Source: Phaeobacter sp. J2-8 (lineage in GTDB: Bacteria > Pseudomonadota > Alphaproteobacteria > Rhodobacterales > Rhodobacteraceae). Taken from it: a DNA stretch of 64,000 nucleotides. The translations under genes and the position numbers were made by a program. Where the stretch lies: assembly GCF_022867865.1 (NCBI RefSeq), contig NZ_JALIEC010000002.1, positions 496,001 through 560,000 on the forward strand, written 5' to 3'. Position 1 is the first letter of the stretch; every line of letters begins with the position of its first letter. Shown here one piece after another: positions 39,667-53,828 of this stretch. The notes below the pieces were generated by a model that ran no database searches, was not told where the DNA came from, and saw only the letters and a list, made by a program, of their open reading frames with translations.

Positions 39667-39761
39667 CGGGGTTTTCCTTTGGCCGAAGTAACGGGCACAA
39701 GAAAGAAACGGGCGCAAGGTTGCACAGTCCGGGCTTGGCCCAGCACAGACAGGAGTTTCAC

Positions 39762-40117
39762 ATGACCGGCTATCTGACCACCCATATCCTTGACACGGCA
39801 CGCGGTTGTCCTGCCGAAGGCATAAAGATTGCGCTTTACCGGGTGTCGGGCAATTCCCACAAGAAAATTGCCGAGACCGTGACCAACGCCGATGGCCGCA
39901 CCGATGCCCCGATTTGCCGGCGGACAAGTTCAAGACCGGCACTTATGAATTGGTGTTCTTTGCCGGGGATTACCTGCGCAACAGCGGTCAGGTCACCGAG
40001 GAGATCTTGTTCCTTGATCAGATCCCGCTGCGCTTTGGCATGGACGACGCGGCGGCGCATTACCATGTGCCATTGCTGTTGTCGCCGTTTGGCTATTCGA
40101 CCTATCGCGGCAGCTGA
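39762..40117 (+). pseudogene. hiuH: 5-hydroxyisourate hydrolase (transthyretin-like), frame-broken
   Basis: Hydrolyses 5-hydroxyisourate to OHCU, the step after urate oxidation. The N-terminal [20 protein letters not shown] carries the catalytic His of transthyretin-like HiuH; the C-terminus ends with FGYSTYRGS, the YRGS signature. One T is missing from the run at 39913-39915; with it the protein is 118 residues, the normal size. The start has AGGAG upstream. Divergent from the puuE-uraD fusion. Confidence 0.9.
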
Positions 40118-40188
40118 TCCGCCGCTGTGCGTTGGGGGCGATGTCGACGCTTGGGGCCTTCGGTTGCCGTAGCGGATGAGTCGGCCAG

Positions 40189-40319
40189 ATGGAGGGCCAG
40201 CCCCCCAAACCGCAGGTGTGATGGGGGCCAGCCCCCCAAACCACAGGTAAGATGGGGGGCCAGCCCCCCAAACCACAGGTAAGATGGGGGGCCAGCCCCT
40301 CAAACCCCCCGGGATATTT
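40189..40319. repeat. Tandem array of 32-bp GC-hairpin repeats, array 1
   Basis: Three 31-32-bp units starting ATGGGGGGCCAGCCCCCCAA, at 40189, 40221 and 40252, and a fourth (40284-40319) ending in CCCCCCGGGATATTT. Each unit can fold into a G6/C6 hairpin. It lies between the convergent ends of hiuH and the LysR gene, facing array 2 at 42653 in inverted orientation. Confidence 0.88.
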
Positions 40320-40363: not shown

Positions 40364-41288
40364 CTAAATGGCGGCGCTTTCCGTTTGTCGAACCGAGGCG
40401 GCCAGACGGTCGACCATGAATTCGATGAAAAGCCGCGTCTTGGGGTCCTGATGACGGCGATGGGTGAATAGAAACGCCATTTGAATATCTTCCGGTGGGT
40501 TGGCCTGTGCCACCGGCACCAGAGCCCCGGATCTGAGGTGGTCGGCGACTTCGAACACCGGTTTCAGGACCACGCCCTGCCCGGTCAGCGCCCAATCTGT
40601 CAGGACATCGCCATCATCCGATTCGAACCGCCCGCCGACACGAAAGCGCTGGACCCCGTTGTCAGTCTGCAAGCGCCATTGAAATTCGGGCGCACCGGGA
40701 TAGCGCAGGTTCAGGCAATTGTGCCTGTCCTTGACCAATGCCTCGCCGCTTTCCGGCATTCCGCGCGCGGCGATATAGCTTGGCGCGGCGCAGATCACCC
40801 GTTTGCAATCCGCCACCTTGCGAATCCGCAGCGTCGAATCCCTCGGGCTGACCAAGGAAAAACGCCACATCCAGACCCTCGGCTGTGAGATCGACATTGC
40901 GATCAGTCAGCCGCAGGCGAATGTCGATCAATGGATAGGCCGCGGCAAATTCCGGCACCACCGGGGCAATCAACCGCCGCCCGACGCCCAAGGGCGCTGC
41001 GATATGCAACACACCTTTGGGGTTTTCGGTGATCGAGCTGACCTGGGCCTCGGCATGATCGACGGCCTCGAGCACGGAAATCGCACCACCATAAAACGCC
41101 CGCCCCTGTTCGGTTGGGGTCAGGGACCGGGTGGTGCGCTGGAACAGCCGCACGTTCAGATGTTGCTCAAGTTGTGAAATCCGCGCCGATGTCACTGCCG
41201 GAGAAATACGCAAATCGCGCCCTGCCGCCGACATAGAGCCAAGATCATAGACACGGACAAAGGTACGGATATTGTCGAAATAGGACAT
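40364..41288 (-). pseudogene. LysR-family regulator, frame-broken
   Basis: The N-terminal winged HTH is clear (YFDNIRTFVRVYDLGSMSAA; ISPAVTSARISQLEQHLNVR), then the effector domain (VLHIAAPLGVGRRLIAPVVP). The frame breaks after GLDVAFFLGQ; one extra base in GGG at 40845-40847 separates it from RDSTLRIRKVADCKRVICAA onward. Corrected length 307 residues. It is divergent from puuD (113 bases apart), so it probably regulates urate oxidation. Confidence 0.87.
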
Positions 41289-41400
41289 TGTTCGGCTTTT
41301 TTTGATGCAGGTGTGTTTTTCTCTGCAATACACGAACAACCAAGCATCCGCTAGTCTGGCAAAAAACGGGTCTGGCAATAAGACAGGAGTTCACCCCAAA

Positions 41401-42633
41401 ATGTTCGAAGCTGCAATTCTCTGGGACTGGCTGGCCTTTGCGGTGCGCTGGTTGCATGTGATCACCGCCATCGCCTGGATCGGATCGTCGTTCTATTTCA
41501 TCGCTCTGGATCTTGGGCTGCGCAAGGCGCCGGATCTGCCTGCGGGCGCGCATGGCGAAGAATGGCAGGTCCACGGCGGCGGCTTTTATCATATCCGCAA
41601 ATATCTGGTGGCACCTTCGGAAATGCCTGACCATCTGACCTGGTTCAAATGGGAAAGCTACGCGACCTGGCTGTCCGGTGCGGCGATGCTGATGATTGTG
41701 TATTGGGTCGGCGGCGAATTGTATCTGATCGACAGCGCCAAGGCCGATCTGGCCCTGTGGCAGGGCATCGCGATTTCCGCCCTCAGCCTGACAATCGGCT
41801 GGATTTGTTACGATTTCCTGTGCAAATCCAAACTGGGTGAGACACCGACGCTCTTGATGGTGTTGCTGTTCGTGATCCTGGTGATCATGTCCTGGGGCTA
41901 TACCCAGGTCTTTACCGGCCGGGCCGCGCTTTTGCACATGGGGGCCTTCACCGCCACCATCATGACCGCCAATGTGTTCTTCATCATCATGCCGAACCAG
42001 CGTATTGTGGTCGACGATCTGCAAAATGGCCGCACGCCGGACCCCAAATACGGCAAGATCGCCAAGCTGCGGTCGACCCACAACAACTATCTCACTTTGC
42101 CGGTGATCTTTCTGATGTTGTCGAACCACTATCCGCTGGCGTTCGCAACGGAATACAACTGGCTGATCACCTGTCTGGTGTTCCTGATGGGCGTGACGAT
42201 CCGGCATTATTTCAATTCGGTCCACGCCCGCAAAGGCGAGCCGACCTGGACCTGGGCGGTCACGCTTATCCTGTTCATCCTCTGCGCCTGGCTTTCGACC
42301 GCGCCCTCCTGGGGCAGCTACGAAGAGGCCGATGCCCGCGCGCTGACGCCCTATGAACAGAAATTCGCATCCGCCGCGCATTTCGAAGACGCTCAGAACA
42401 TCGTGATTGGTCGCTGCTCCATGTGCCATGCCCGTGAACCGGTCTGGGACGGTATTCGCTGGGCCCCCAAAGGCGTGTTTCTGGAAACCGCCGGCGATGT
42501 GGCCCAAAATGCCCGTGCGATCTATCTGCACGCTGGGGTCAGCCACGCCATGCCGCCTGCCAATATCACCGAAATCGAAGTCGAGGAACGCCGCATGCTG
42601 GTTGCCTGGTACACAAGCGCCAAGGCCTACTAA
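41401..42633 (+). CDS. puuD: Membrane-bound urate hydroxylase/oxidase PuuD with cytochrome c domain
   Basis: A 410-residue integral membrane protein that oxidises urate to 5-hydroxyisourate and passes electrons to the respiratory chain. The N-terminal 300 residues carry about 8 hydrophobic helices (WLHVITAIAWIGSSFYFIAL; PNQRIVVDDLQNGR; STHNNYLTLPVIFLMLSNHY). The C-terminal domain has a cytochrome c CSMCH motif near residue 340. ATG 41401 was chosen because it gives the family N-terminus; upstream in-frame sequence is the divergent promoter region. Its c-type haem needs the ccm genes of this window. Confidence 0.93.
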   Translation: MFEAAILWDWLAFAVRWLHVITAIAWIGSSFYFIALDLGLRKAPDLPAGAHGEEWQVHGGGFYHIRKYLVAPSEMPDHLTWFKWESYATWLSGAAMLMIVYWVGGELYLIDSAKADLALWQGIAISALSLTIGWICYDFLCKSKLGETPTLLMVLLFVILVIMSWGYTQVFTGRAALLHMGAFTATIMTANVFFIIMPNQRIVVDDLQNGRTPDPKYGKIAKLRSTHNNYLTLPVIFLMLSNHYPLAFATEYNWLITCLVFLMGVTIRHYFNSVHARKGEPTWTWAVTLILFILCAWLSTAPSWGSYEEADARALTPYEQKFASAAHFEDAQNIVIGRCSMCHAREPVWDGIRWAPKGVFLETAGDVAQNARAIYLHAGVSHAMPPANITEIEVEERRMLVAWYTSAKAY

Positions 42634-42652: not shown

Positions 42653-42750
42653 AAATATCCCGGGGGGTTTGGGGGGCTGGCCCCCCATCTGCCCTGCGGT
42701 TTGGGGGGCTGGTCCCCCATATGTCCTGCGGTTTGGGGGCCAGCCCCCCG
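42653..42750. repeat. Tandem array of 32-bp GC-hairpin repeats, array 2
   Basis: Starts AAATATCCCGGGGGG, then units of the type CTGCGGTTTGGGGGGCTGG, the reverse complement of array 1 units (about 28 of 32 match). It lies between the convergent ends of puuD and the FAD-subunit gene. Arrays 1 and 2 thus form inverted repeats around the LysR-puuD pair. Confidence 0.85.
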
Positions 42751-42834: not shown

Positions 42835-43620
42835 TCAACCTGCGGCGGCAACCGCCCGTTTGGTCATCACCGCCACCAGATGCGCGCGATAAGCGCCGGT
42901 GCCGTGCAAGTCGCCGATCATTCCGTCACCCGACAGCGACAGACCGGCCAATGCATCCGCCGAAAAATCTGCCGACAACGCGGCTTCGGCCTCGGTCCAG
43001 CGGAACACCCCTTCTTCAGAGGCACCGGTCACTGCGACCCGCACACCATCGGCGAATTTGGCGACAAACACGCCGACCAATGCGAAACGCGAGGCAGGTT
43101 GCTCGAACTTCACATAGGCGGCTTTTTCCGGGATCGGGAAAGTCACCGCAGTCACGATCTCGCCCTCGTCCAGCGCGGTGGTGAACATGCCCTGGAAATA
43201 ATCGTCTGCCGCAATCTCGCGCGCGTTGGTCACGATGGTTGCACCAGACCCCAAGGCCGCCGCCGGATAACAGGCGGATGGATCGTTGTTAGCCAAAGAT
43301 CCGCCAATGGTGCCACGATTGCGCACCGCCGGGTCGCCGATACCACCGGCCAGCGCCGCCAGCGCCGGATAGGCCCCGGCCCCCGCCGCCACTGCGCCAT
43401 GGGTGCTGCCACCGCCAATCGTCAGGCTGTCGCCCGCTTGCGAAATCCCCTTCATCTCGGAAATCCCGGACAGGCTGACCAATTTCGACGGCATGGCCAA
43501 CCGCTGTTTCAGCGTCGGGATCAGCGTCTGACCGCCGCCCAGCGCCTGTGCGTCTTCATCTGCCAATGCGGCCACGGCGTCAGCCACGGATGTTGGCCGT
43601 TCGATGTCAAAGCTATACAT
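42835..43620 (-). CDS. CoxM-like FAD-binding subunit of a molybdenum hydroxylase
   Basis: A 261-residue FAD subunit of the xanthine dehydrogenase/CO dehydrogenase family. The two FAD pyrophosphate motifs are seen as ALGGGQTLIP and the NRGTIGGSLANNDPSACYP block (family TIGGxxAxxDPA/S). It transfers electrons from the Fe-S subunit to quinone or another acceptor. It follows the large subunit by 14 bases and is the last gene of coxG-coxS-coxL-coxM. Confidence 0.92.
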   Translation of the reverse strand: MYSFDIERPTSVADAVAALADEDAQALGGGQTLIPTLKQRLAMPSKLVSLSGISEMKGISQAGDSLTIGGGSTHGAVAAGAGAYPALAALAGGIGDPAVRNRGTIGGSLANNDPSACYPAAALGSGATIVTNAREIAADDYFQGMFTTALDEGEIVTAVTFPIPEKAAYVKFEQPASRFALVGVFVAKFADGVRVAVTGASEEGVFRWTEAEAALSADFSADALAGLSLSGDGMIGDLHGTGAYRAHLVAVMTKRAVAAAG

Positions 43621-43634
43621 ATCCTAGCCCTCCC

Positions 43635-46013
43635 TTAGCTGGCTTGGTTGATTGCGGCCCACACACGGGCGGGCGTCGCAGGCATATCAATGTGATCCAC
43701 TTTATGTCCGCCAGACTGCAGCGCGTCGAGGATGGCGTTGATCACGGTCGGCGGCGATCCGATCGCCCCGGCCTCGCCACAGCCCTTCACACCCAATGGA
43801 TTGTGGGTACAAGGCGTCTGGCAGGAATGGTCGACGCTGTAGCTGTCCATATGCGGCAGATCATCGGCGCGCGGCATGGTGTAATCCATGTAAGACGCCG
43901 ACAGAAGCTGACCGTTGTCGTCATAGACACAGTTTTCCAGCAAGGCCTGGCCGATCCCCTGGGCGATGCCGCCATGCACCTGACCTTCGACGATCATCGG
44001 ATTGATGACATTACCGAAATCATCCGCCGAAACGAATTTTTCGATCTTCACATGGCCGGTTTCCGGGTCCACCTCAACCTCGCAGGCATAGGCGCCCGCC
44101 GGATAGGTGAAGTTCGACGGATCGTAAAACGCGGTTTCCTCCAACCCCGGTTCGATATCCTCCAGTGGATAGTTATGCGGTACATAGGCGGCCAGACAGA
44201 CATCCCCCCAAGCCACCGATTTATCCGTGCCGGACACCGTGAACTGACCGTCCTTCAATTCGATATCGGCCTCAGAGGCCTCCATCAAATGGGCGGCGAT
44301 CTTCTTGGTCTTGTTGATGATCTTCTCGGTCGCCCGCACCATGGCCGACCCACCCACCGCGATGGAGCGCGAGCCATAGGTGCCCATGCCCATCGGCGTA
44401 TTGGCGGTGTCGCCATGCACGATTTCGACCTGTTCTTCCGGGATGCCGATCATTTCGGAAATCACCTGGGGAAAGGCGGTTTCATGCCCCTGCCCGTGGC
44501 TGTGCGATCCGGTCATCACCACCAATCCGCCGGTGGCATTGACCCGCACTGTGGCGCTTTCATACAGGCCGGCACGTGCCCCCAATTGCCCGACAAGGTT
44601 CGACGGCGCGATGCCGCAGGCCTCGATAAAGCAATTGATGCCCAGACCGCGCAGCTTGCCCTTGGCTTCGGATGCGGATCGGCGCGCGGCAAAGCCGTCG
44701 CGGTCGATCAATTCCAGCATCTTGTCCATGGTAGCATGATAGTCGCCCGTGTCATAGACAACGGCAACAGGCGTCTGATACGGGAATTCCGTGATGAAGT
44801 TCTGACGGCGCAGTTCGACCGGATCAGCGCCCACCTCCCGCGCCGCTTTGTCGATCACCCGTTCAAGCTGATAGGTCGCCTCGGGGCGCCCAGCGCCACG
44901 ATAGGCATCCACGGGCACGGTGTTCGTGAACACCGCCTTGACGTTGGTATAGACCAGCGGCGTCTTGTAGTTCCCGGCCAAAAGCGTGCCATGCAGCCAT
45001 GTCGGCACCGAGGGCGCAAAGGTCGACAGATATGCCCCCATGTTGGCATAGGTCAGACAGCGCAGGGCGGTGAAATTATTGTCTGCATCCAGCCCCAATT
45101 CGATCTTGGTCACATGGTCACGACCGTGACAGTCGGACATGAATGCCTCGGACCGGGAAGAGGTCCATTTGACCGCACGGTTGATCGCCTTGGCGGCAAA
45201 GGTACAAAATGCCTCTTCCGCGTAGTGAAAGATCTTGGTGCCAAAGCCGCCGCCGACATCCGGTGCCACGACGCGCAGCTTGTGCTCGGGAATGCCAAGC
45301 ACAAATGCCCCCATCAAGAGCCGGATCACATGCGGGTTTTGCGATGTGGTATAAAGCGTTGAGTCGCCGGTGCCGCGGGCGTAGTCGCCCACCGCCACGC
45401 GCGGCTCCATCGGGTTGGCCACCAGACGGTTGTTGACCAGTTCCAATGTCGTCACATGCGCGGAATTGGCAATCGCGGCGTCCACCGCGGCCTTGTTTTC
45501 CTCGACAAAGCCCCAATCGTAACACAGGTTGTCCGACAGGTCGTCATGCACCAGCGTTGCGCCATCGGCCAGCGCGGCCTTCATGTCGACCACTGCGGGC
45601 AGCTCTTCGATATCGACTTCGATCGCCTCGGCCGCATTTCGCGCCTGTTCCAGCGTATCGGCGACAATCGCGGCAATCGGGTCGCCGACATGGCGCACCT
45701 TGCCCTGGGCCAGAACCGGGTGGGCCGGTTCCTTCATGGGTTGGCCGTGTTTGTCGGTCACTTCCCACCCGCAGGGCAGACCGCCGACACCTTCGAAATC
45801 GGCGCCGGTGAAAATCCGCACCACGCCGGGCATTGCGGCGGCGGCGGCGGTATCGAGGTTGGTGATCCGTCCATGCGCCACATCAGAGCGCAGGAAATGG
45901 ACATAGGCCTGTCCGTGAATATTGATGTCGTCGGTATAATTCCCGACACCTGTCAAAAAGCGCACGTCCTCGCGGCGCTTGGTGCTGGCTCCGATGCCAT
46001 GATCTTTCGGCAT
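43635..46013 (-). CDS. CoxL-like molybdopterin subunit, form II
   Basis: A 792-residue catalytic subunit binding Mo-molybdopterin cytosine dinucleotide. GGGFGTK and the C-terminal [13 protein letters not shown], with the catalytic glutamate, are intact. The active-site loop reads AYRGAGR, the form II signature, not the AYxCSFR of genuine CO-oxidising form I CoxL. So CO oxidation is doubtful and another substrate is likely. Subunit order, with coxG upstream and xdhC and a molybdopterin-binding gene nearby, is typical of these loci. Confidence 0.93.
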
Positions 46014-46067: not shown

Positions 46068-46553
46068 TCACTCGGCGGCGACGGCTGGCACATCCTGGCC
46101 AGAGGCGGCCATGATCGCGCGAACGATGTTGTGATACCCGGTGCAGCGGCAAATATTGCCTTCCAGATAGTCACGCACCTCGGCCTCGGTCGGTTTGGGG
46201 TTGTCCTTCAGCAATGCCGCCGCAGACATCACCATGCCCGGCGTACAGAACCCGCATTGCAGCCCGTGATAATCCTGAAACGCCTGCTGGATGGTGTTCA
46301 ACGTGCCATCCGCAGCGGCCTGGCCTTCGATGGTTGCCACATCGGCGCCATCCGCCTCGGCGGCGAACATGGTACAGCTTTTCACCGCTTCGCCATTCAC
46401 ATGCACCACACAGGCCCCGCATTGGCTGGTGTCACAGCCGACATGCGTGCCGGTCATGCGCAGATCCTCGCGCAGAAATTCGACGAGCAACCGATTGCCC
46501 GCCACATCGCCGCTTACGGATTTTCCGTTCACGGTCATGGTTACCTTGGTCAT
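46068..46553 (-). CDS. CoxS-like [2Fe-2S] subunit
   Basis: A 161-residue iron-sulfur subunit with two [2Fe-2S] clusters. The plant-ferredoxin-type cluster shows [21 protein letters not shown]; the C-terminal cluster shows CGFCTPGMV and [11 protein letters not shown]. The start [13 protein letters not shown] at 46553 matches the family. It lies 54 bases upstream of the large subunit and 44 after the coxG-like gene. Confidence 0.94.
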
Positions 46554-46597: not shown

Positions 46598-47131
46598 TCA
46601 GCTGACCAGACGTTTGATCCAACCTTTTTTGGCTTCGCCCGCCGCTTCATCTGTCGCTTCGGGCGCATCTGCTGCGCTGTCTTCCGCCGGGGGACCTTCG
46701 ACCGCCTGCTGGAAATTGGCAAAGAACTGATCGGCCATCTTTTTGGCAAAACCGTCGATGATGCGACTGCCAAGCTGGGCCAGCTTGCCGCCGACCTTGG
46801 CCTCGACCTCGTAATGCAAGGTGGTGCCGGTTTCGGTGGGTTCCAGCCGCACTTCGGCACCGCCCTTGGCAAAACCGGCAGCGCCGCCCTTGCCCTCTCC
46901 GGTCATGGTCAGGCTCTGCGGTGCCACCATCTCAGACAGGGTGACCGCGCCCTTGAAGGTGGCTTTGACCGGGCCGACCTTTTGCACAACCGTGGCTTGA
47001 AACCCCTCTTCTGGCGTGCCGGACATGTCCTGACATCCGGGCACACATTGTTTCAAAACCTCTGGATCAAGCAGCGCGGCCCAAACGGTTTCGGGCGGCG
47101 CGGCGATTTCGCGGGAATTGGTGAGTTGCAT
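46598..47131 (-). CDS. CoxG-like SRPBCC protein
   Basis: A 177-residue protein with a START-like SRPBCC fold (about residues 1-145: [30 protein letters not shown]), then an acidic Ala-rich linker and a basic C-terminal WIKRLV tail, as in CoxG, which recruits CO dehydrogenase to the membrane. It is first in the leftward molybdenum hydroxylase operon and divergent from the response regulator. Confidence 0.9.
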
Positions 47132-47468
47132 GAATATTTGCCTCCTTGGGTCAGAGCCTAGGCGGAACAGTCGCAGCCCGGCTATTGTACCAAAGTCCAG
47201 ACTGACTGTCGCGGCCCGGGTTTTCCAGCCCTGTTCCGGTTCTGAGATCGCTTTCTTGCGGTTTGGTCCGGAAAACCCGGCGCGATATGCGACCATAGGC
47301 GTAGTGCCTTGTGCCGTCTCGACGCGTAGTATGATCCGCAAGCGATATCCTGTAACCTGGCGCGCACCGCAGACGCACAACCCCGAACCAACGGCCAGAA
47401 CCAACGACCCGAACCAACTGCCCCGAACCGACAGCCCGAACCAATCCTCCCCAACCACAGGCGCACAG
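47132..47468. other. 337-bp divergent intergenic region with 13-bp repeats
   Basis: Between the coxG-like and response regulator starts. It must hold both promoters; I see no strong -35/-10 pair. Its right third carries the 13-bp GAACCAAC tandem repeats (47385-47450). No small coding gene is supported. Confidence 0.6.
47385..47450. repeat. Five tandem 13-14-bp GAACCAAC repeats
   Basis: GAACCAAC or near-copies begin at 47385, 47398, 47411, 47425 and 47438, spaced 13-14 bases with a CCC tract between. Because the unit is not a multiple of three, it is not a coding repeat. It ends 18 bases before the response regulator ATG. Two degenerate copies occur at 51696-51721, after the kinase gene. Confidence 0.75.
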
Positions 47469-48167
47469 ATGACAATCGACCACCTCGCCCCGCTTGACGG
47501 ACCTGCCAGCGCCCTGGTGATTGACGATCACCCGCTGTTTTGTGACGCGCTGGTGTTGACGCTGCGGGCGATTTGTACCGGGGTGCAGGTCGACACCGCC
47601 GCCAATCTTGCCGCCGCTCTGGCACAGATCGACGCCGGTCAGCGGCCGGACGTGGTGTTGCTGGATCTGAACCTGCCGGATGTCAACGGATTGGATGGCT
47701 TGATCCGGCTGCAAACCGCGCTGGGCCGCGAGGTGCCAATCGTGGTGGTGTCTTCGATGGCCGACAACCGGATGATTTCCAAGGCACTGGCCGCCGGGGC
47801 CGCCGGTTTTGTCCCCAAGCACAGCCAGAAGGCAGCCTTTCACGATGCGCTGTCCACCATTCAGGCCGGGGGCATCTATACCCCGGACAATTTCCTGCCC
47901 GACAGCCCCGAGGGCACCTCGCAGGTTGAGGCCGTCGAACGGCTGACGACGCTGACCAACCAGCAAACCCGCATTCTTCAGCTGATCTGCGAGGGCAAGT
48001 TGAACAAGCAGATTGCTTTTGATCTGACAATCGCGGAAACCACGGTCAAGGCACATGTCACTGCGATCATGCGCAAACTGGGGGTGCAAAGCCGGACCCA
48101 GGCGGTATTGGTCGCCCAGGAGGCGCGGTTTTCGGGCATCTTGTCAGAGGGTCGTGAACGGGCGTAA
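47469..48167 (+). CDS. LuxR/NarL-family response regulator
   Basis: A 232-residue two-component regulator. Receiver domain at about residues 12-130 with phospho-acceptor Asp66 in VVLLDLNLPDVNG, the switch residues and Lys in VPKHSQ. The C-terminal LuxR HTH is LTNQQTRILQLICEGKLNKQ then IAETTVKAHVTAIMRKLGV. It is followed by the FIST sensor gene and hybrid kinase in one operon, so the kinase probably phosphorylates it. ATG 47469 gives the family N-terminus; the RBS is weak. Confidence 0.9.
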   Translation: MTIDHLAPLDGPASALVIDDHPLFCDALVLTLRAICTGVQVDTAANLAAALAQIDAGQRPDVVLLDLNLPDVNGLDGLIRLQTALGREVPIVVVSSMADNRMISKALAAGAAGFVPKHSQKAAFHDALSTIQAGGIYTPDNFLPDSPEGTSQVEAVERLTTLTNQQTRILQLICEGKLNKQIAFDLTIAETTVKAHVTAIMRKLGVQSRTQAVLVAQEARFSGILSEGRERA

Positions 48168-48169
48168 AC

Positions 48170-49435
48170 TTGGCCCTGTCGCGACAGACCCACCAGAGGC
48201 GGAAGACGGAATTCTTGGACGGTCCCAATCGCATAACGACCGCCCAGGGCGAAGACGCGAAACGCGAGGGCGAGGGCGAGGACGCGAAACGCCTGCGGTG
48301 CACGCAGGTGTCGATACATGATCCTGACCCGATTGGCGCGATTGTCTCTGGCCTTGGCGCGGGCTCATCTTCGGCCGTCACGTTTGAATTGGTTCTGTTG
48401 TTCATCAGCAGCGACGCCGATTTCGACGCTCTGGTCACTGCGGCCCATCGCCGACTGACGGCCCGCCATATCGTCGCCTGCACCACTGCGGGCGAGATTG
48501 GCGAGAAAGGTTATGAAGACGACCAGATCGTGGCAATGGCGCTGATGCCAGAGAGCTTTCGCACCTCCTGTTACCTGGTGGAACGGCTGGACCAGATCGC
48601 ACCTCAGGACGAGATCGACCACCTGATCCGCTGCCGCGTGGCCCTGGCGGATGCGGCGCCGGATCATGCTGCGGAATTCGCATTTCTGACCATTGACGGC
48701 ATGTCGCGGCGCGAAGATGCGGTGACCGCCGCGCTGTCCACGGGATTGGGCGGCATGCCCCTGTTTGGCGGATCCGCCGGGGACGGCCAGCGGTTCGGGC
48801 GAACCTTTGTCGCCCTGGACGGGCAGATCCATGAAAACGCCGCGGTCGTGACCCTTGTGCGCAGCCGCTGCCCGATCCGGGTGTTCAGCCTCGATCATCT
48901 GACCCCGACCGACACCAAGATGGTGGTCACAGAGGCCGATCCGCAAAATCGGATCGTGCGCCAGATCAATGCCGAACCGGCCGCCCGCGAATACGCCCGT
49001 ATCGTGGGCAAAATGCCGGATCAGCTGGATCAATTCACCTTCGCCGCACATCCGGTTGTGGTGCAACTGGGCAGCCGCCACCATGTGCGCGCGATCCAGC
49101 GGGTCAATGAACATGGCGAGCTGGTGTTCTTCTCTGCCATCGACGAGGGCATGGTGCTGACGCTTGCGGACAGCGGCGAAATGGCGGCGCATCTGGACAG
49201 CGAACTGGCACGTTTGTCGCGTCATGGCGCGCCGGAAATGATCCTTGGCTGTGATTGTCTGCTGCGCCGGATCGAGGCCGAACAACATCAGATCGGCCCG
49301 GCGGTCTCTGAGGTGCTGCGCCGTCACAATGTGCGCGGCTTTGCCACCTATGGCGAACAGGTGGGCGCGCTGCATGTCAATCACACCATGACCGGCGTGG
49401 CGTTCTATCCCCCCGACAGCGACACGCCCAAATGA
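48170..49435 (+). CDS. FIST-domain sensory protein (NosP-like)
   Basis: FIST_N domain (about residues 50-260: VTFELVLLFISSDADFDALV; ACTTAGEIG; FGGSAGDG) and FIST_C domain (about 265-415: LDQFTFAAHPVVVQLG; CDCLLRRIEAE; GFATYGEQVGALHVNHTMTG). Full length is about 421 residues from TTG 48170; GTG 48308 is an alternative because the first 45 residues are repetitive (GEDAKRE-type) and there is no good RBS. Family knowledge: NosP FIST proteins bind haem and nitric oxide and control NahK-type kinases. The stop overlaps the kinase ATG (ATGA), supporting a sensor-kinase pair. Confidence 0.87.
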   Translation: MALSRQTHQRRKTEFLDGPNRITTAQGEDAKREGEGEDAKRLRCTQVSIHDPDPIGAIVSGLGAGSSSAVTFELVLLFISSDADFDALVTAAHRRLTARHIVACTTAGEIGEKGYEDDQIVAMALMPESFRTSCYLVERLDQIAPQDEIDHLIRCRVALADAAPDHAAEFAFLTIDGMSRREDAVTAALSTGLGGMPLFGGSAGDGQRFGRTFVALDGQIHENAAVVTLVRSRCPIRVFSLDHLTPTDTKMVVTEADPQNRIVRQINAEPAAREYARIVGKMPDQLDQFTFAAHPVVVQLGSRHHVRAIQRVNEHGELVFFSAIDEGMVLTLADSGEMAAHLDSELARLSRHGAPEMILGCDCLLRRIEAEQHQIGPAVSEVLRRHNVRGFATYGEQVGALHVNHTMTGVAFYPPDSDTPK

Positions 49436-51681
49436 CACTTGTCAATCCCAACGACAGCCTGGAACGGCAGAACGAAAAGCTGTTGCGCATCACCCAATCG
49501 CTGATGCGACGGGTGGAACAGCAACAGGACCCCTCTGGTCTGGCCTATGCCCAATTCGAGCGCGCCGCATTGCTGGAAGATCAGGTGCGCGCCCGCACAA
49601 GGGATCTGGAACATGCGCTGGCGTTGTTGCATGATTCCAACCTGCGGCTGGAACAGGCCAACGCCGATACCGAAGCGGCCCGCGCCAACCTCGCCGATGC
49701 GATCGAAGCGGTGAACGAAGGTTTCGCCCTGTTTGACCAGCACGACCGGTTGGTGCTGAGCAACAGCCGGTTTTCCATCGACATGCGCGATATCTCTGGC
49801 CAACTGCAACCCGGGCTGCCGTTTGACAGCTATGTCGATATCGTCAGCCGATCCGCCTTTCTTGCGCTGCCCGATGGGGAAACCCCCGCAGGATGGGCCG
49901 CGATGCGCAAGTCGCTGCACAAAGGGCGCAACGCCATGTTCAATGTGCGCCTGAAACAGGGGCTATGGCTTCAGGTGTCGGAACGGCGCACGGCCAATCT
50001 GGGCACGGTTGTGCTGCAAACCGATGTGACCGATCTGATCCGGTTGGAACGCCAGGAACGGGAACGTCTACAGGACAAACAGGCGCGGCTGATCTCGGCG
50101 ACGCTGGACCATTTGAACCAAGGCGTCTGTATCTTTGATGGCGAGGCCCGGCTTCTGGGCTGGAACGTGCGGGTGGCGGAATTGCTGAACCTGCCGCTGA
50201 GCCGGATGCAGATGGGCGCGCGGTTTGCGGCGCTGATTGACCGTATGCCCAGCGATTTCACCCTGTCCCAAGGCATGTCCCGCAAGCGGTTGTTGACCTG
50301 GGCCGCCCATCCCACCCGCCACGGTGCCCTGCGGTTCGAGGCCCGTCAGGGCGCGGCGCGCACGCTGGATGCCTTTGCCCAGGGTTTGCCCGACAGCGGA
50401 TTTGTGATTTCCTTCACCGATGTGACCGCCGAACGCAATGCCGCCCGCGCATTGCAGGACATGAATGAACGGCTAGAGGTGCGGGTCGCCGAACGCACCA
50501 CGGAACTGGCCACAGCACTGGCCACAGCCGAACGCGCCAATGCGTCGAAATCGCGGTTTGTCGCTGCCGCCAGCCATGACCTCTTGCAGCCGCTGTCCGC
50601 GGCGAAACTGTTTATCAGCTCGCTCCAGGGTGCGGGCATGTCACCCCAGGACAACGAGGCGCTGGACAAGGCGACCATGGCGTTGGGATCGGCCGAAAAC
50701 ATCATTGACGCGCTGTTGGATATTTCCCGCCTGGACAGTGGGCTGGCGGAATTTGACATGCGCACCGTCAGCCTGACACCGATCTTTACGGCGCTGCGCA
50801 CGCAGGTCGAACCATTGGCGGCGCAAAAGGGGCTGGTGCTGCGTGTGGTGGACAGCAACCTTCAGGTGGAAACCGATCCATCCTATCTGCGCCGCATCCT
50901 GCAAAACCTGTTGGGCAATGCGGCGCGCTATACCGAAACCGGCAAGATCCTGATGGGCGTGCGGCGCTGTGGACCTTTGGCCCGGATCGAGGTCTGGGAT
51001 ACCGGCCCCGGCATCGCCGAAGAACATCGCGACGAAATTTTTCGCGAATTTGCCCGCGTGCATGCCCCGGCCTCTGCCTCCGAAGGATTGGGGCTGGGGC
51101 TGGCGATTGTCGATCGCGCCTGTGCCGGGTTGGGCCATCAATTGGACCTGCGGTCGGAACCCGGGCGCGGCACGGTGTTTTCGGTCACACTGGCGCTGGC
51201 GGACCCGATTGCCGATCCGTCAGACACCACCCGCCGCCCTGCCCCGCGTCAGGCACCCGCCAAGGGCCGAATGGTGTTTCTGGTGGAAAATGACGCCAAT
51301 ATGCGCCGCGCCCTGACCATGGCGCTGGAAAGCGGCGGTGCCGATGTGATCGACGTTGCCGGCGCAACCGAAGCGCTGGATCTGCTGGACGAGCTGGACC
51401 TGATCCCCGATGCGCTTTTGCTGGACGAGGCCCTTGGCCCCGGTCTGCGCGGCACGGAATTGTTTGACGCCATCACCGCGCGGTACGGGCCGATCCCCGC
51501 CTGTATCCTGTCGGCGGAACGCTCTGCGGATCTGGCACAGCGTTGCCGGGATCTGGGCCTGCCGCTGCTGCACAAACCGATCGACACCGCGGAACTGGAC
51601 CGGTTTCTGGCCACCACCGGCCCCGGCAGAACCGCACGCCAGAACGGCAAGCCGAGGGTGTTTCAGGCCAAAGAGGGCTGA
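49432..51681 (+). CDS. PAS-containing hybrid histidine kinase (NahK-like)
   Basis: A 749-residue soluble hybrid kinase. N-terminal coiled coil (about 1-90), two PAS-like domains (about 90-200 and 215-330), a second coiled coil, HisKA with ASHDLLQPLSAAKLF (His near residue 382), HATPase with LLGNAARYTETG and GLGLGLAIVDRACAG, and a C-terminal receiver with LLLDEALGPGLRGTEL (Asp near 665). This layout and the HDLLQPL phosphorylation box match NahK-type kinases regulated by FIST/NosP proteins. No membrane segments. Confidence 0.92.
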   Translation: MTLVNPNDSLERQNEKLLRITQSLMRRVEQQQDPSGLAYAQFERAALLEDQVRARTRDLEHALALLHDSNLRLEQANADTEAARANLADAIEAVNEGFALFDQHDRLVLSNSRFSIDMRDISGQLQPGLPFDSYVDIVSRSAFLALPDGETPAGWAAMRKSLHKGRNAMFNVRLKQGLWLQVSERRTANLGTVVLQTDVTDLIRLERQERERLQDKQARLISATLDHLNQGVCIFDGEARLLGWNVRVAELLNLPLSRMQMGARFAALIDRMPSDFTLSQGMSRKRLLTWAAHPTRHGALRFEARQGAARTLDAFAQGLPDSGFVISFTDVTAERNAARALQDMNERLEVRVAERTTELATALATAERANASKSRFVAAASHDLLQPLSAAKLFISSLQGAGMSPQDNEALDKATMALGSAENIIDALLDISRLDSGLAEFDMRTVSLTPIFTALRTQVEPLAAQKGLVLRVVDSNLQVETDPSYLRRILQNLLGNAARYTETGKILMGVRRCGPLARIEVWDTGPGIAEEHRDEIFREFARVHAPASASEGLGLGLAIVDRACAGLGHQLDLRSEPGRGTVFSVTLALADPIADPSDTTRRPAPRQAPAKGRMVFLVENDANMRRALTMALESGGADVIDVAGATEALDLLDELDLIPDALLLDEALGPGLRGTELFDAITARYGPIPACILSAERSADLAQRCRDLGLPLLHKPIDTAELDRFLATTGPGRTARQNGKPRVFQAKEG

Positions 51682-51721: not shown

Positions 51722-51869
51722 GCAACGGCGCAAGGATCGCGGGTCACCCCGATCCGGCCATCCACCCAGCCCGAGCAAAGCCCGGCCAAGGGCCTGCGAC
51801 CATGGTCGCACTGCGCGGTTGCAGACAGCGGCGCAATTGCTGATAGACTGCGCGCAAGGAGGATTTCCC

Positions 51870-52828
51870 ATGCAAGGCATTCCGGAAATTGCGCTCGACT
51901 GGCATCGTCAGGGGCATGGCGTGGCACTGGCCACGGTGGTCGAAACCTGGGGCAGCGCGCCACGCCGCACGGGGGCACAGCTGGTGATCCGCGCCGATGC
52001 CGCGATGGAGGGCTCGGTCTCGGGCGGATGTGTCGAAGGCGCGGTTGTGGTCGAAGCGCTGGAGGCGCTGGAAGACGGCGCACCGCGGCTGTTGGAATAT
52101 GGTGTTTCCGATGGCGATGCCTTTGCCGTTGGGCTGGCCTGCGGCGGCACAATCCGGGTTCTGGTCGAACCTGTCGGGCCCGCCCTGCCCGTGGCCATGT
52201 TGGAAGATCTGGTCACGGCCCGCGCCGCGCGCGGCCCGTTGCCTATGTGATCAATCCCAGCGAGGGCAGCCGCCGGTTGGCTTTCGACGGGTACGACACC
52301 CGGTTTCGCATGGACCGTTCGGGTTTTGAGGACGACGGCGAAACCTTTGTCGCCATTCACAATCCCCCGCTGCGTCTGATCGTTGTCGGGGCGGTTCACA
52401 TTGCCCAGCATCTGGTGCCGATGGCACGTGATATAGGCTATGATCCGGTGGTGATCGACCCGCGCGACAGCTTTGCCGCGCCGGCCCGGTTCCCCGACAC
52501 GCGCCTGTTGTCCGATTGGCCCGACGAAGCGGTGGCCGATCTTGGGCTTGATGGGCGCACGGCGCTTTGCCTTTTGACCCATGATCCAAAACTGGATGAT
52601 CCCGCGCTCGCGGCCGCCTTGCGGTCGGGCGTGTTTTATATCGGTGCGCTGGGATCGAAACGCACCCATGCCAAACGGTTGGACCGGATGGCCGAGGCTG
52701 GGTTCACGCCACAGGAGTGCGCCCGCATTCACGGCCCGATCGGGCTTGATATCGGCGCAGCCAGCCCGGCGGAAATCGCGGTGTCGATCCTTGCGGAAAT
52801 GACCCGCGTGCTGCGGCAAGGCGCATGA
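51870..52828 (+). pseudogene. XdhC/CoxI-family molybdenum cofactor insertion protein, frame-broken
   Basis: XdhC proteins sulfurate and insert the molybdenum cofactor into xanthine-dehydrogenase-type enzymes. The N-terminal domain (about 1-125) has ATVVETWGSAPRRTGAQLVI and EGSVSGGCVEGAVV; the C-terminal Rossmann domain has LIVVGAVHIAQHLVPMARDI, YIGALGSKRTHAKR and HGPIGLDIGAASPAEIAVSI. The frame breaks in CCC at 52235-52237; one more C restores ARGPVAYVINPSEGSRR and 319 residues. ATG 51870 follows AAGGAGG. Likely partner: the CoxL-like enzyme upstream. Confidence 0.88.
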
Positions 52829-52838
52829 AGGTGATCCG

Positions 52839-53828
52839 ATGAGGTTCGGCCCCCTGCCGGTTGCCGATGCGCTTGGCGCGGTTCTGGCGCATTCGCTGCA
52901 ACTCAACGGGCGAAAGCTGCGCAAGGGCGTGACGCTGACAGCGCAGCATATTGCCGATCTGACAGCCGCCGGCGAACATGAGGTGATCGTTGCGCGCCTT
53001 GATGCCGGCGACATTCACGAAAACGAAGCGGCGGCGCAATTGGCCTGCGCGCTGGTGCCGGATCCGGCCGCCGCCGGACTGCGCCTGACCAAGGCCTTTA
53101 CCGGCCGGGTGAATCTGATCGCCGAAGGGCCGGGCGTGGCGATGCTGGACGTCGACCGGCTTGTGGCCTTGAACCGGATCAACCCGATGATCACCCTGGC
53201 CACGGTGCCCAATTTCCAACAGATGTCGCCCGGCGGCATGGTCGGCACCGTCAAGATCATTGCCTATGCCGTGCCGGAACATGATTTGAGGGCCGCCATG
53301 GACCGGGCCCGATCCGCCATCCGATTGGCGCGCCCGGTTGTTCAAACTGCAAGCCTGATTGTAAGCGAAATCCCCGGCGGGGCCGGCGAAAAAGGCGTTC
53401 CGGCGATTGCCGCGCGGCTGTCGGCGCTGAATGTCACGCTGGAACAGGTCGTACCGGTCCCGCACAAGACCCAGACCATTGCCGAGGCATTGCGCCGTGT
53501 GGACAGCGATCTGGTGTTGATATTGACGGGGTCTGCCACCTCTGACCCGGCGGATGTGGCGCCCGAAGCCCTGCGCCAGGCAGGCGGTCGGGTGATCCGC
53601 TTTGGCATGCCGGTCGATCCCGGCAATCTGTTGTTTCTGGGGGACAGGGCCGGACGCCCGGTGATCGGCCTGCCGGGCTGTGCCCGCTCTCCGGCATTGA
53701 ACGGTGCAGACTGGGTCTTGTCCCGCGTGGCATGTGGCATCGCGATTGACCATGACGATATTGCGGCCATGGGGGTTGGCGGGCTGCTCAAGGAAATACC
53801 GACCCGCCCGCAACCCCGGGGTGGCTGA
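52839..53828 (+). CDS. MoCF-domain molybdopterin-binding protein
   Basis: A 329-residue protein with a MoaB/MoeA-type molybdopterin-binding domain in the second half (HKTQTIAEALRRVDSDLVLI; LTGSATSDPADVAPEALRQ; MPVDPGNLLFLGDRAGRPVI). The first half is a smaller family-specific domain. Such genes accompany xdhC in cox/xdh loci and are thought to help cofactor maturation, perhaps cytosine-dinucleotide formation; that role is inferred. It starts 10 bases after the xdhC stop, in the same operon. Confidence 0.85.
   Translation: MRFGPLPVADALGAVLAHSLQLNGRKLRKGVTLTAQHIADLTAAGEHEVIVARLDAGDIHENEAAAQLACALVPDPAAAGLRLTKAFTGRVNLIAEGPGVAMLDVDRLVALNRINPMITLATVPNFQQMSPGGMVGTVKIIAYAVPEHDLRAAMDRARSAIRLARPVVQTASLIVSEIPGGAGEKGVPAIAARLSALNVTLEQVVPVPHKTQTIAEALRRVDSDLVLILTGSATSDPADVAPEALRQAGGRVIRFGMPVDPGNLLFLGDRAGRPVIGLPGCARSPALNGADWVLSRVACGIAIDHDDIAAMGVGGLLKEIPTRPQPRGG

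Follow-up and report, generated by a model that had tools for sequence, protein, structure and literature searches.

In the ped clusters of Pseudomonas a FIST protein, a hybrid histidine kinase (HK) and a LuxR-type response regulator (RR), described as NosP-NahK(ErcS')-ErbR or PP_2663-PedS1-AgmR, lie within a pyrroloquinoline quinone (PQQ) alcohol dehydrogenase cluster together with the Ped ABC genes and pedF (PMC12997753), and the regulator AgmR/PedR1 activates genes in response to alcohols (PMC12997753, PMC13390443). FlhRS of Paracoccus denitrificans exerts two-component control over methanol/formaldehyde (C1) genes (PMC8879981), and in NosP-NosK-NosR of Burkholderia pseudomallei a FIST auxiliary protein acts on a kinase without a sensor domain of its own (PMC12570481). 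Here we analyse a trio of RR, FIST and HK genes in a 64,000-nucleotide stretch of Phaeobacter sp. J2-8 (contig NZ_JALIEC010000002.1, positions 496,001 to 560,000; hereafter the window). Compared by description, its locus resembles the Pseudomonas system in the trio itself and, among relatives, in the ped surroundings, but the apparent target in the window is a molybdenum hydroxylase, a genome search brought up no PQQ dehydrogenase, and the proteins score under the NCBI cut-offs. The window's trio falls in a different clade (SH-aLRT 99) from the distant, FlhRS-like trio type of the family, FlhRS itself likewise being compared by description, and whereas the output of the Burkholderia system is a degenerate HD-GYP protein, the window has a DNA-binding regulator and a kinase with PAS domains.

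We propose that the trio is probably a two-component system with an auxiliary sensor, of the type NosP-NahK(ErcS'/PedS1/FlhS)-AgmR(ErbR/FlhR), which would bind a shared palindrome and control a form II CoxL hydroxylase and xdhC within an alcohol/aldehyde oxidation regulon. The three genes occupy 47469-51681 on the plus strand: a LuxR/NarL-type RR (AgmR/ErbR/FlhR-like and a predicted palindrome binder; 47469-48167; Response_reg 77.6 bits, GerE 68.7 bits), a FIST/FIST_C protein that may act as a NosP-like auxiliary sensor (48170-49435; FIST 143 bits, FIST_C 61 bits) and a NahK/ErcS'/PedS1/FlhS-like hybrid HK (49432-51681; PAS_7 in two stretches, HisKA, HATPase_c and Response_reg). The gap of 2 bp between RR and FIST and the overlap of 4 bp between FIST and HK suggest a single operon, which the trio looks like. 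To its left, on the minus strand and divergent from it, lie coxG, the first gene of its operon (46598-47131; COXG 110.9 bits; ATG taken at 47131 behind AAGGAGG), coxS for the 2Fe-2S subunit (46068-46550; NCBIfam glyceraldehyde dehydrogenase gamma 216 bits, cut-off 290), coxL for the form II molybdopterin subunit (43635-46013; MoCoBD_1, MoCoBD_2) and coxM for the FAD subunit (42835-43620; NCBIfam glyceraldehyde dehydrogenase beta 186.5 bits, cut-off 350). To its right, on the plus strand, follow xdhC, encoding a molybdenum cofactor (Moco) maturation factor (51870-52828; XdhC_CoxI in 51819-52250, XdhC_C in a second frame), and a molybdopterin-binding protein of the MoCF family (52839-53828; MoCF_biosynth 36.3 bits). 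A preliminary description, made from the window's letters, had placed the trio between coxGSLM and xdhC; open reading frames, domain matches and, for CoxS and CoxM, NCBIfam relatives confirm all of these genes and their location, with the amendments that coxGSLM run divergently on the minus strand, that xdhC is frameshifted near 52245 and that the FIST start is uncertain.

Four lines of evidence were computed, namely gene content, conserved linkage, a shared motif and the match of this motif to the presence of the trio. The survey of neighbourhoods, which the preliminary description had called for, drew on 199 genomes of the family, with FIST matches (NosP model) in 88 and CoxL relatives in 171; after leaving out ten weak FIST matches (<75 bits), it comprised 97 strong FIST loci and the window (n = 98). 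The trio is conserved as a unit, the RR being present in 92/98 loci and the HK in 97/98. The window's trio type, defined by a kinase identity of at least 46%, accounts for 70 of the 98 loci; 23 of these have CoxL in the stretch and 28 a PQQ alcohol dehydrogenase (PQQ-ADH), PedA or PedC, two having both and 21 neither (matches to the ABC ATPase PedB alone were not taken as Ped neighbours in this count). By distance, 34 of about 69 window-type genomes have trio and CoxL no more than 20 kb apart, against 0.7-2.1 expected (reckoned for 68); the pairs were read by hand and cross-checked against the locus stretches. The linkage between trio and CoxL is more than chance and is conserved in several gene orders. 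A count of the best-scoring 80 named loci among the matches listed gives 23 with cox, 22 with PQQ/Ped genes (coxG showing at the edge in two) and 35 with neither; these 35 include the nearest relatives, Roseivivax, and two (L249, L278) show coxG at the edge of a short contig.

Where cox adjoins the trio directly, it either diverges from it, the window's arrangement, or follows downstream on the same strand; a Ruegeria THAF33 plasmid has the window's gene order. In some loci the neighbours of the trio are PQQ alcohol dehydrogenase (ped/xoxF) genes; eleven further genomes have a composite of cox, ped, xoxF and trio in which CoxL is 11-16 kb away, and in 11/11 of them coxMLSG diverges from a ped-xoxF-RR-FIST run (G137 without detected PedB/C; G101 with PQQ-ADH and xdhC-mocF in between). 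G061 is intermediate, only PedB/PedC remaining between cox and trio. Composite clusters occur on plasmids (one Tateyamaria, two Ruegeria, one Pseudosulfitobacter), two of which carry pqqABCDE; in a Phaeobacter gallaeciensis cluster cox, ped and pqq occur together, but the stretch contains no trio. The distant, FlhRS-like trio type (28 loci, one of them, L150, unclassified as a short contig without kinase) has CoxL nearby in 0/28 loci, and the coxG promoter of G042, a genome with this type only, is without the palindrome described below; this clade was rejected as a cox regulator. As a separate observation, the distant trio of L140, with a FIST gene of its own, adjoins mxa-like genes, a glutathione-dependent formaldehyde dehydrogenase and an S-formylglutathione hydrolase (named by eye), and therefore FlhRS-type systems may commonly carry a FIST partner.

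Promoters connect these genes further. Three sets, freed of near-copies beforehand, were run separately: pedA1 (42), PQQ-ADH/xoxF (44) and coxG of trio loci (54). All three yield the same 18-bp palindrome, ATacGACCwwGGTCgtAT (log-likelihood 242-304 versus 25-33 for shuffled controls, searches and controls alike being constrained to an 18-bp palindrome), to which RR promoters show a weaker likeness (158 versus 29 shuffled). The exact dyad GACCN2GGTC stands before pedA1 in 18/42 cases (0.4 expected) and before coxG in 6/54 (0.25 expected), and a position weight matrix (PWM) whose training sets contained no cox promoters gives a site of at least 9 at -70 to -100 of coxG in 48/54, compared with 0.65% of shuffles. 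Among CoxL-centred loci, leaving out L190, L034 and L048 as unusable, a site near -80 occurs in the coxG promoters of 9/9 trio genomes (scores 9.9-17.2), although the trio is clearly elsewhere in four of them (G079, G153, G142, G169); it is linked in another four, and G120, with trio and cox genes both at contig ends, is counted in neither group. Genomes lacking the trio have the site in 0/4 coxG (best 5.6), 0/15 xdhC (best 5.2) and 0/8 coxS promoters (best 5.4), the coxG comparison giving a Fisher p of 0.0014. Since trio-bearing and trio-lacking rows are intermixed in the CoxL tree, the motif follows the trio and not the enzyme's descent. Trio-lacking loci do contain single palindromes at other places (the best, 16.5, lies behind coxM in L297), and a genome with only a weak FIST match has a site of 9.4 at a different position.

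Three predicted operators were found around the window's cox and xdhC genes (P, the chance of the score in random sequence with the same dinucleotides). One, at 47184-47201 on the minus strand (PWM 12.8; P 0.004), is at the conserved coxG position, its 5' end 79 bp before the assumed coxG start, which is 9 bp inside the gene; a second lies in the coxG-RR intergenic region at 47287-47304, minus strand (PWM 15.0; P 0.0009); the third, CTGCGACCATGGTCGCAC at 51794-51811 on the plus strand, stands just before xdhC (PWM 16.7; P 0.00015). In relatives the palindrome is also present before pedA1, pedF, xoxF and, in some, pqqA, and the regulon would therefore be one of alcohol/aldehyde oxidation. Four named plasmid clusters did not enter the training sets, and their organisms are closely related to training genomes (L197 and L198, which are in the training sets, were not counted as outside); in these clusters 20/24 sites of at least 13 are intergenic, with intergenic DNA making up about 9%; these sites lie before PQQ-ADH, in the pedA1-pedF interval, before coxG (two clusters) or coxS (one), before a 4Fe-4S/ApbE operon and beside pqqA. 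A cox region of Azospirillum whose stretch shows no trio is free of sites of at least 12.5. General autoregulation of the trio through the motif was rejected, as 41/131 RR promoters pass with the pedA1 matrix and 71/131 with a weaker matrix derived from a sample of these promoters. In the window genome, good palindromes at other places (L305, L299) stand beside Mrp/ApbC-like and replication-type genes, named by eye.

Conserved linkage and the shared predicted operator lead us to regard control of the hydroxylase by the trio as well supported by comparison, and the analogy with Pseudomonas and Paracoccus, together with the operator, makes it most likely that this control extends to an alcohol/aldehyde oxidation regulon of which CoxGSLM would be the aldehyde-oxidising enzyme. 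The sites in common with alcohol oxidation genes suggest that the trio activates the enzyme, and that the enzyme serves alcohol or aldehyde breakdown and not the use of a gas. The mechanism for which we infer phosphotransfer, binding, substrate and signal would run as follows: on sensing a small molecule, the FIST protein adjusts how active the hybrid kinase is; this kinase passes phosphate to the LuxR-type regulator; and the phosphorylated regulator binds the palindrome upstream of coxG and xdhC, thereby controlling both the form II CoxL hydroxylase and the factor that matures it, with CoxGSLM most likely the aldehyde-oxidising partner within the regulon. In the window genome the regulator would have stayed with the hydroxylase, the PQQ dehydrogenase part not being found there. 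A genome search of the assembly, which is 95% complete, gave no PQQ alcohol dehydrogenase over the cut-off; because of this, the window locus may be the remnant of a composite. PQQ-ADH is detected in 60/199 genomes and was not found in 9/14 divergent-cox and 5/8 downstream-cox genomes. In a kinase tree (a quick search with 90/98 rows, those with a kinase frame <650 aa, such as L103, left out, and L085, with PQQ-ADH between cox and trio, scored as divergent), the divergent-cox state takes 14 changes over 14 rows, scattered among ped-type rows, and the window falls outside the distant trio clade with the support given above. The simplest reading, and one that goes beyond the counts, is that the ped/xoxF block was lost repeatedly from the composite locus while cox and trio were retained.

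The HK has the order PAS, HisKA, HATPase and receiver that defines NahK/ErcS' hybrid kinases (models NF041831 and NF041832); its H382 is conserved in 91/91 aligned rows, and the Asp and Lys of the RR receiver, which is joined to a GerE helix-turn-helix domain, in 92/92. Scores are below threshold for the HK with NahK (376.5 bits, cut-off 1500) and near_NosP_CTERM (326.6, cut-off 400), and for the RR with its best model, ErdR (157.5, cut-off 390). The FIST protein, product of the only FIST gene found in a search of the window genome, has a candidate TTG start at 48170, and its FIST domain match begins at residue 74; its nearest NCBIfam model is NosP (NF041558; 376.9 bits, curated cut-off 450), a cut-off passed in 0/199 genomes, and like NosP it combines FIST and FIST_C domains and is encoded beside a NahK-type kinase. 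The preliminary description had spoken of a NosP/NahK-like pair with its response regulator, and the nearest models agree with that likeness, while all three proteins remain under the NCBI naming cut-offs for NosP, NahK and ErdR. The AlphaFold model of the FIST protein (mean pLDDT 80.7, pTM 0.83) finds the FIST domain of human FBXO22 as top VIA-align match (Z 17.0 over 241 residues), FBXO22 chains taking ranks 1-4 (Z 15.1-17.0) ahead of Toblerone-fold enzymes (Z about 10.8); Foldseek, by E-value, puts Toblerone-fold hydrolases first and FBXO22 third. The model thereby matches a solved FIST domain, as expected of a FIST fold; the two share 11% identity, and the human domain is part of an F-box protein. 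Searches of the PDB by sequence returned chance-level matches only and no solved bacterial FIST protein.

As to the enzyme, the CoxL translation carries AYRGAGR and the genes run in S-L-M order, the two marks of form II CoxL (PMC13203968), so the earlier identification of a form II CoxL-type enzyme holds. Against NCBIfam it scores 630.6 bits as glyceraldehyde dehydrogenase alpha (cut-off 790) and 620.9 as CO dehydrogenase (cut-off 991). Such an enzyme is often classed with CO oxidation, and two 2026 papers term the role of form II CoxL unclear or unresolved (PMC13203968, PMC13240472). The window's enzyme shares motif and gene order with other form II (coxSLM) hydroxylases and differs from them in a shared predicted operator that ties it to PQQ alcohol oxidation. 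In a group of loci (L311, L312, L313, L315) an FMN transferase and a 4Fe-4S protein adjoin coxM, with the same palindrome upstream, and constitute a possible electron-transfer partner of the hydroxylase. Trio-lacking loci L279-L298 mostly run xdhC-mocF-coxS-coxL-coxM without adjacent coxG (15/20); 4/20 have coxG and 1/20 neither.

What the FIST protein senses may be NO or haem, as for NosP, or a carbonyl compound. Were it a true NosP, nitric oxide (NO) would control the hydroxylase through kinase and regulator, a proposition that we hold to be rather unlikely: NosP is indeed the closest model, NosP of other bacteria binds haem and alters kinase activity with NO (PMC12570481, PMC8846402), and a review of ped genes proposes NO sensing for the Pseudomonas pair (PMC12997753), yet the NosP cut-off is missed across the family and the motif-bearing neighbours seen are genes of alcohol oxidation and not of NO handling. 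His402 and Cys363 are invariant in 98 rows, and His243 is conserved in 93 and His305 in 88; from the alignment these are no more than candidate haem ligands, and a NosP haem ligand was not found described in the accessible literature, just as no bacterial FIST structure came up by sequence search. The preliminary description had suggested that gas sensing may control the hydroxylase. Control of the enzyme gains support from conserved linkage and shared operator; gas sensing as its purpose does not, given scores below the NosP/NahK/ErdR cut-offs and a trio often found beside PQQ alcohol dehydrogenase genes, and we judge it less likely than the alcohol/aldehyde role. A FIST protein free of haem, which the same description had counted as refuting, would leave the regulatory link untouched. 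For the carbonyl alternative, the FBXO22 FIST domain has an aldehyde-reactive C326 and nearby E362 (PMC13316043), and the window protein an invariant Cys363 and a Glu396 invariant in 98/98 aligned rows, 33 residues apart compared with 36 in FBXO22, the pairs being compared by their spacing. Because of this resemblance, Cys363, with Glu396, might form a reversible hemithioacetal with aldehydes, as C326 with E362 does in FBXO22, and the protein might signal the alcohol oxidation product to the kinase, which would induce form II CoxL as aldehyde-oxidising step; the idea is speculative and, in our view, unlikely. If true, it would assign a role different from gas sensing both to orphan form II enzymes and to this clade's bacterial FIST sensors.

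Other readings concern the enzyme or deny the link. A reading of the hydroxylase as CO dehydrogenase, with the trio as CO sensor, is hardly credible and was set aside: the operon bears the name cox and encodes CoxG, and CO dehydrogenases are among the nearest solved structures and NCBIfam models, but form I is defined by AYxCSFR, coxMSL order and TIGR02416 above 991 bits, whereas the window has AYRGAGR, a form whose CO activity is unproven (PMC13203968, PMC13240472), S-L-M order and 620 bits, no gene of its genome lies above the form I cut-off, and the motif's partners are PQQ alcohol oxidation genes. We consider it very improbable that the enzyme is a xanthine dehydrogenase of a urate pathway. 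A PuuD-like urate oxidase (Urate_ox_N 452 bits at 41302-42633) and UraH-like fragments near 39720-40117 (named by eye) are close by and XdhC follows the trio; PuuD, however, is near in just 2/98 loci, the window included, and is thus a local neighbour, for which reason this pathway was also set aside, while CoxL scores higher as glyceraldehyde/CO dehydrogenase than with any xanthine dehydrogenase model and it is with ped and xoxF that cox shares its predicted operator. The trio might finally run some other programme, such as biofilm formation or motility, and stand beside cox by history, in line with the window-type loci that have neither neighbour and with Pseudomonas NahK, which acts on other pathways (PMC12997753). 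The coxG operator nevertheless tracks the trio even in the four genomes with a clear separation of trio and cox, and 34 linked genomes show several gene orders; this, too, is distinctly improbable.

Several points weigh against the proposed control of an alcohol/aldehyde oxidation regulon. Neither CoxL nor a PQQ/Ped neighbour accompanies 21/70 window-type loci, and CoxL relatives are common without the trio (171/199 genomes versus 88/199 with a FIST match), so the enzyme does not need it. On the side of the motif, the search, shuffles included, was limited to the 18-bp palindrome form, trio-lacking coxG promoters are few (four genomes), and coxS-first trio genomes are mixed, 4/6 having a site of 8.5-10.4 at varying places and 2/6 none. 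The window sites are imperfect; a whole-genome consensus search for the regulon, which gave 12 places versus 8 in the reversed control, lists none of them, and two inspected places yielded no link; a further site at 45098 (13.6) lies inside coxL and is probably due to chance. The pairing of regulator and motif is a prediction from sequence comparison only, and no AgmR/PedR1 operator was found described in the accessible literature. In print, moreover, the role of form II CoxL is still called unclear (PMC13203968, PMC13240472), the kinase PedS1 of P. putida is dispensable for PedR1 (PMC13390443), and the ped review links the pair of FIST protein and kinase to NO, either in place of alcohols or besides them, assigning alcohol sensing to another kinase (PMC12997753). 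At 95% completeness, PQQ-ADH could also sit in a gap of the window assembly.

No earlier report of a link between FIST and form II CoxL was found in the open-access literature, and a paper on Roseobacter XoxF mentions neither coxL nor two-component systems. An operator predicted to be shared with PQQ alcohol oxidation genes offers a concrete, testable pathway for form II CoxL, and the palindrome is where a class of FIST-linked regulators is predicted to bind. The case also counsels caution, in that NosP-like FIST proteins should not be named NO sensors from sequence alone.

Some minor features of the window surround these genes. UraH-like (39720-40172, named by eye), LysR (40364-41378) and XdhC (51819-52828) frames each appear to be split over two frames within 13 kb, reflecting either decay or indel errors of the assembly. 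The coxG-RR interval contains C/A-rich tandem repeats of 13 and 26-27 bp at 47377-47460. Finally, 32-bp repeat units surround the palindrome GGGGGGCTGGCCCCCC at 40187-40306 and 42666-42739, and the genome-wide count, allowing no more than one mismatch, is 24 matches forward and 26 reverse versus 0 in the control.

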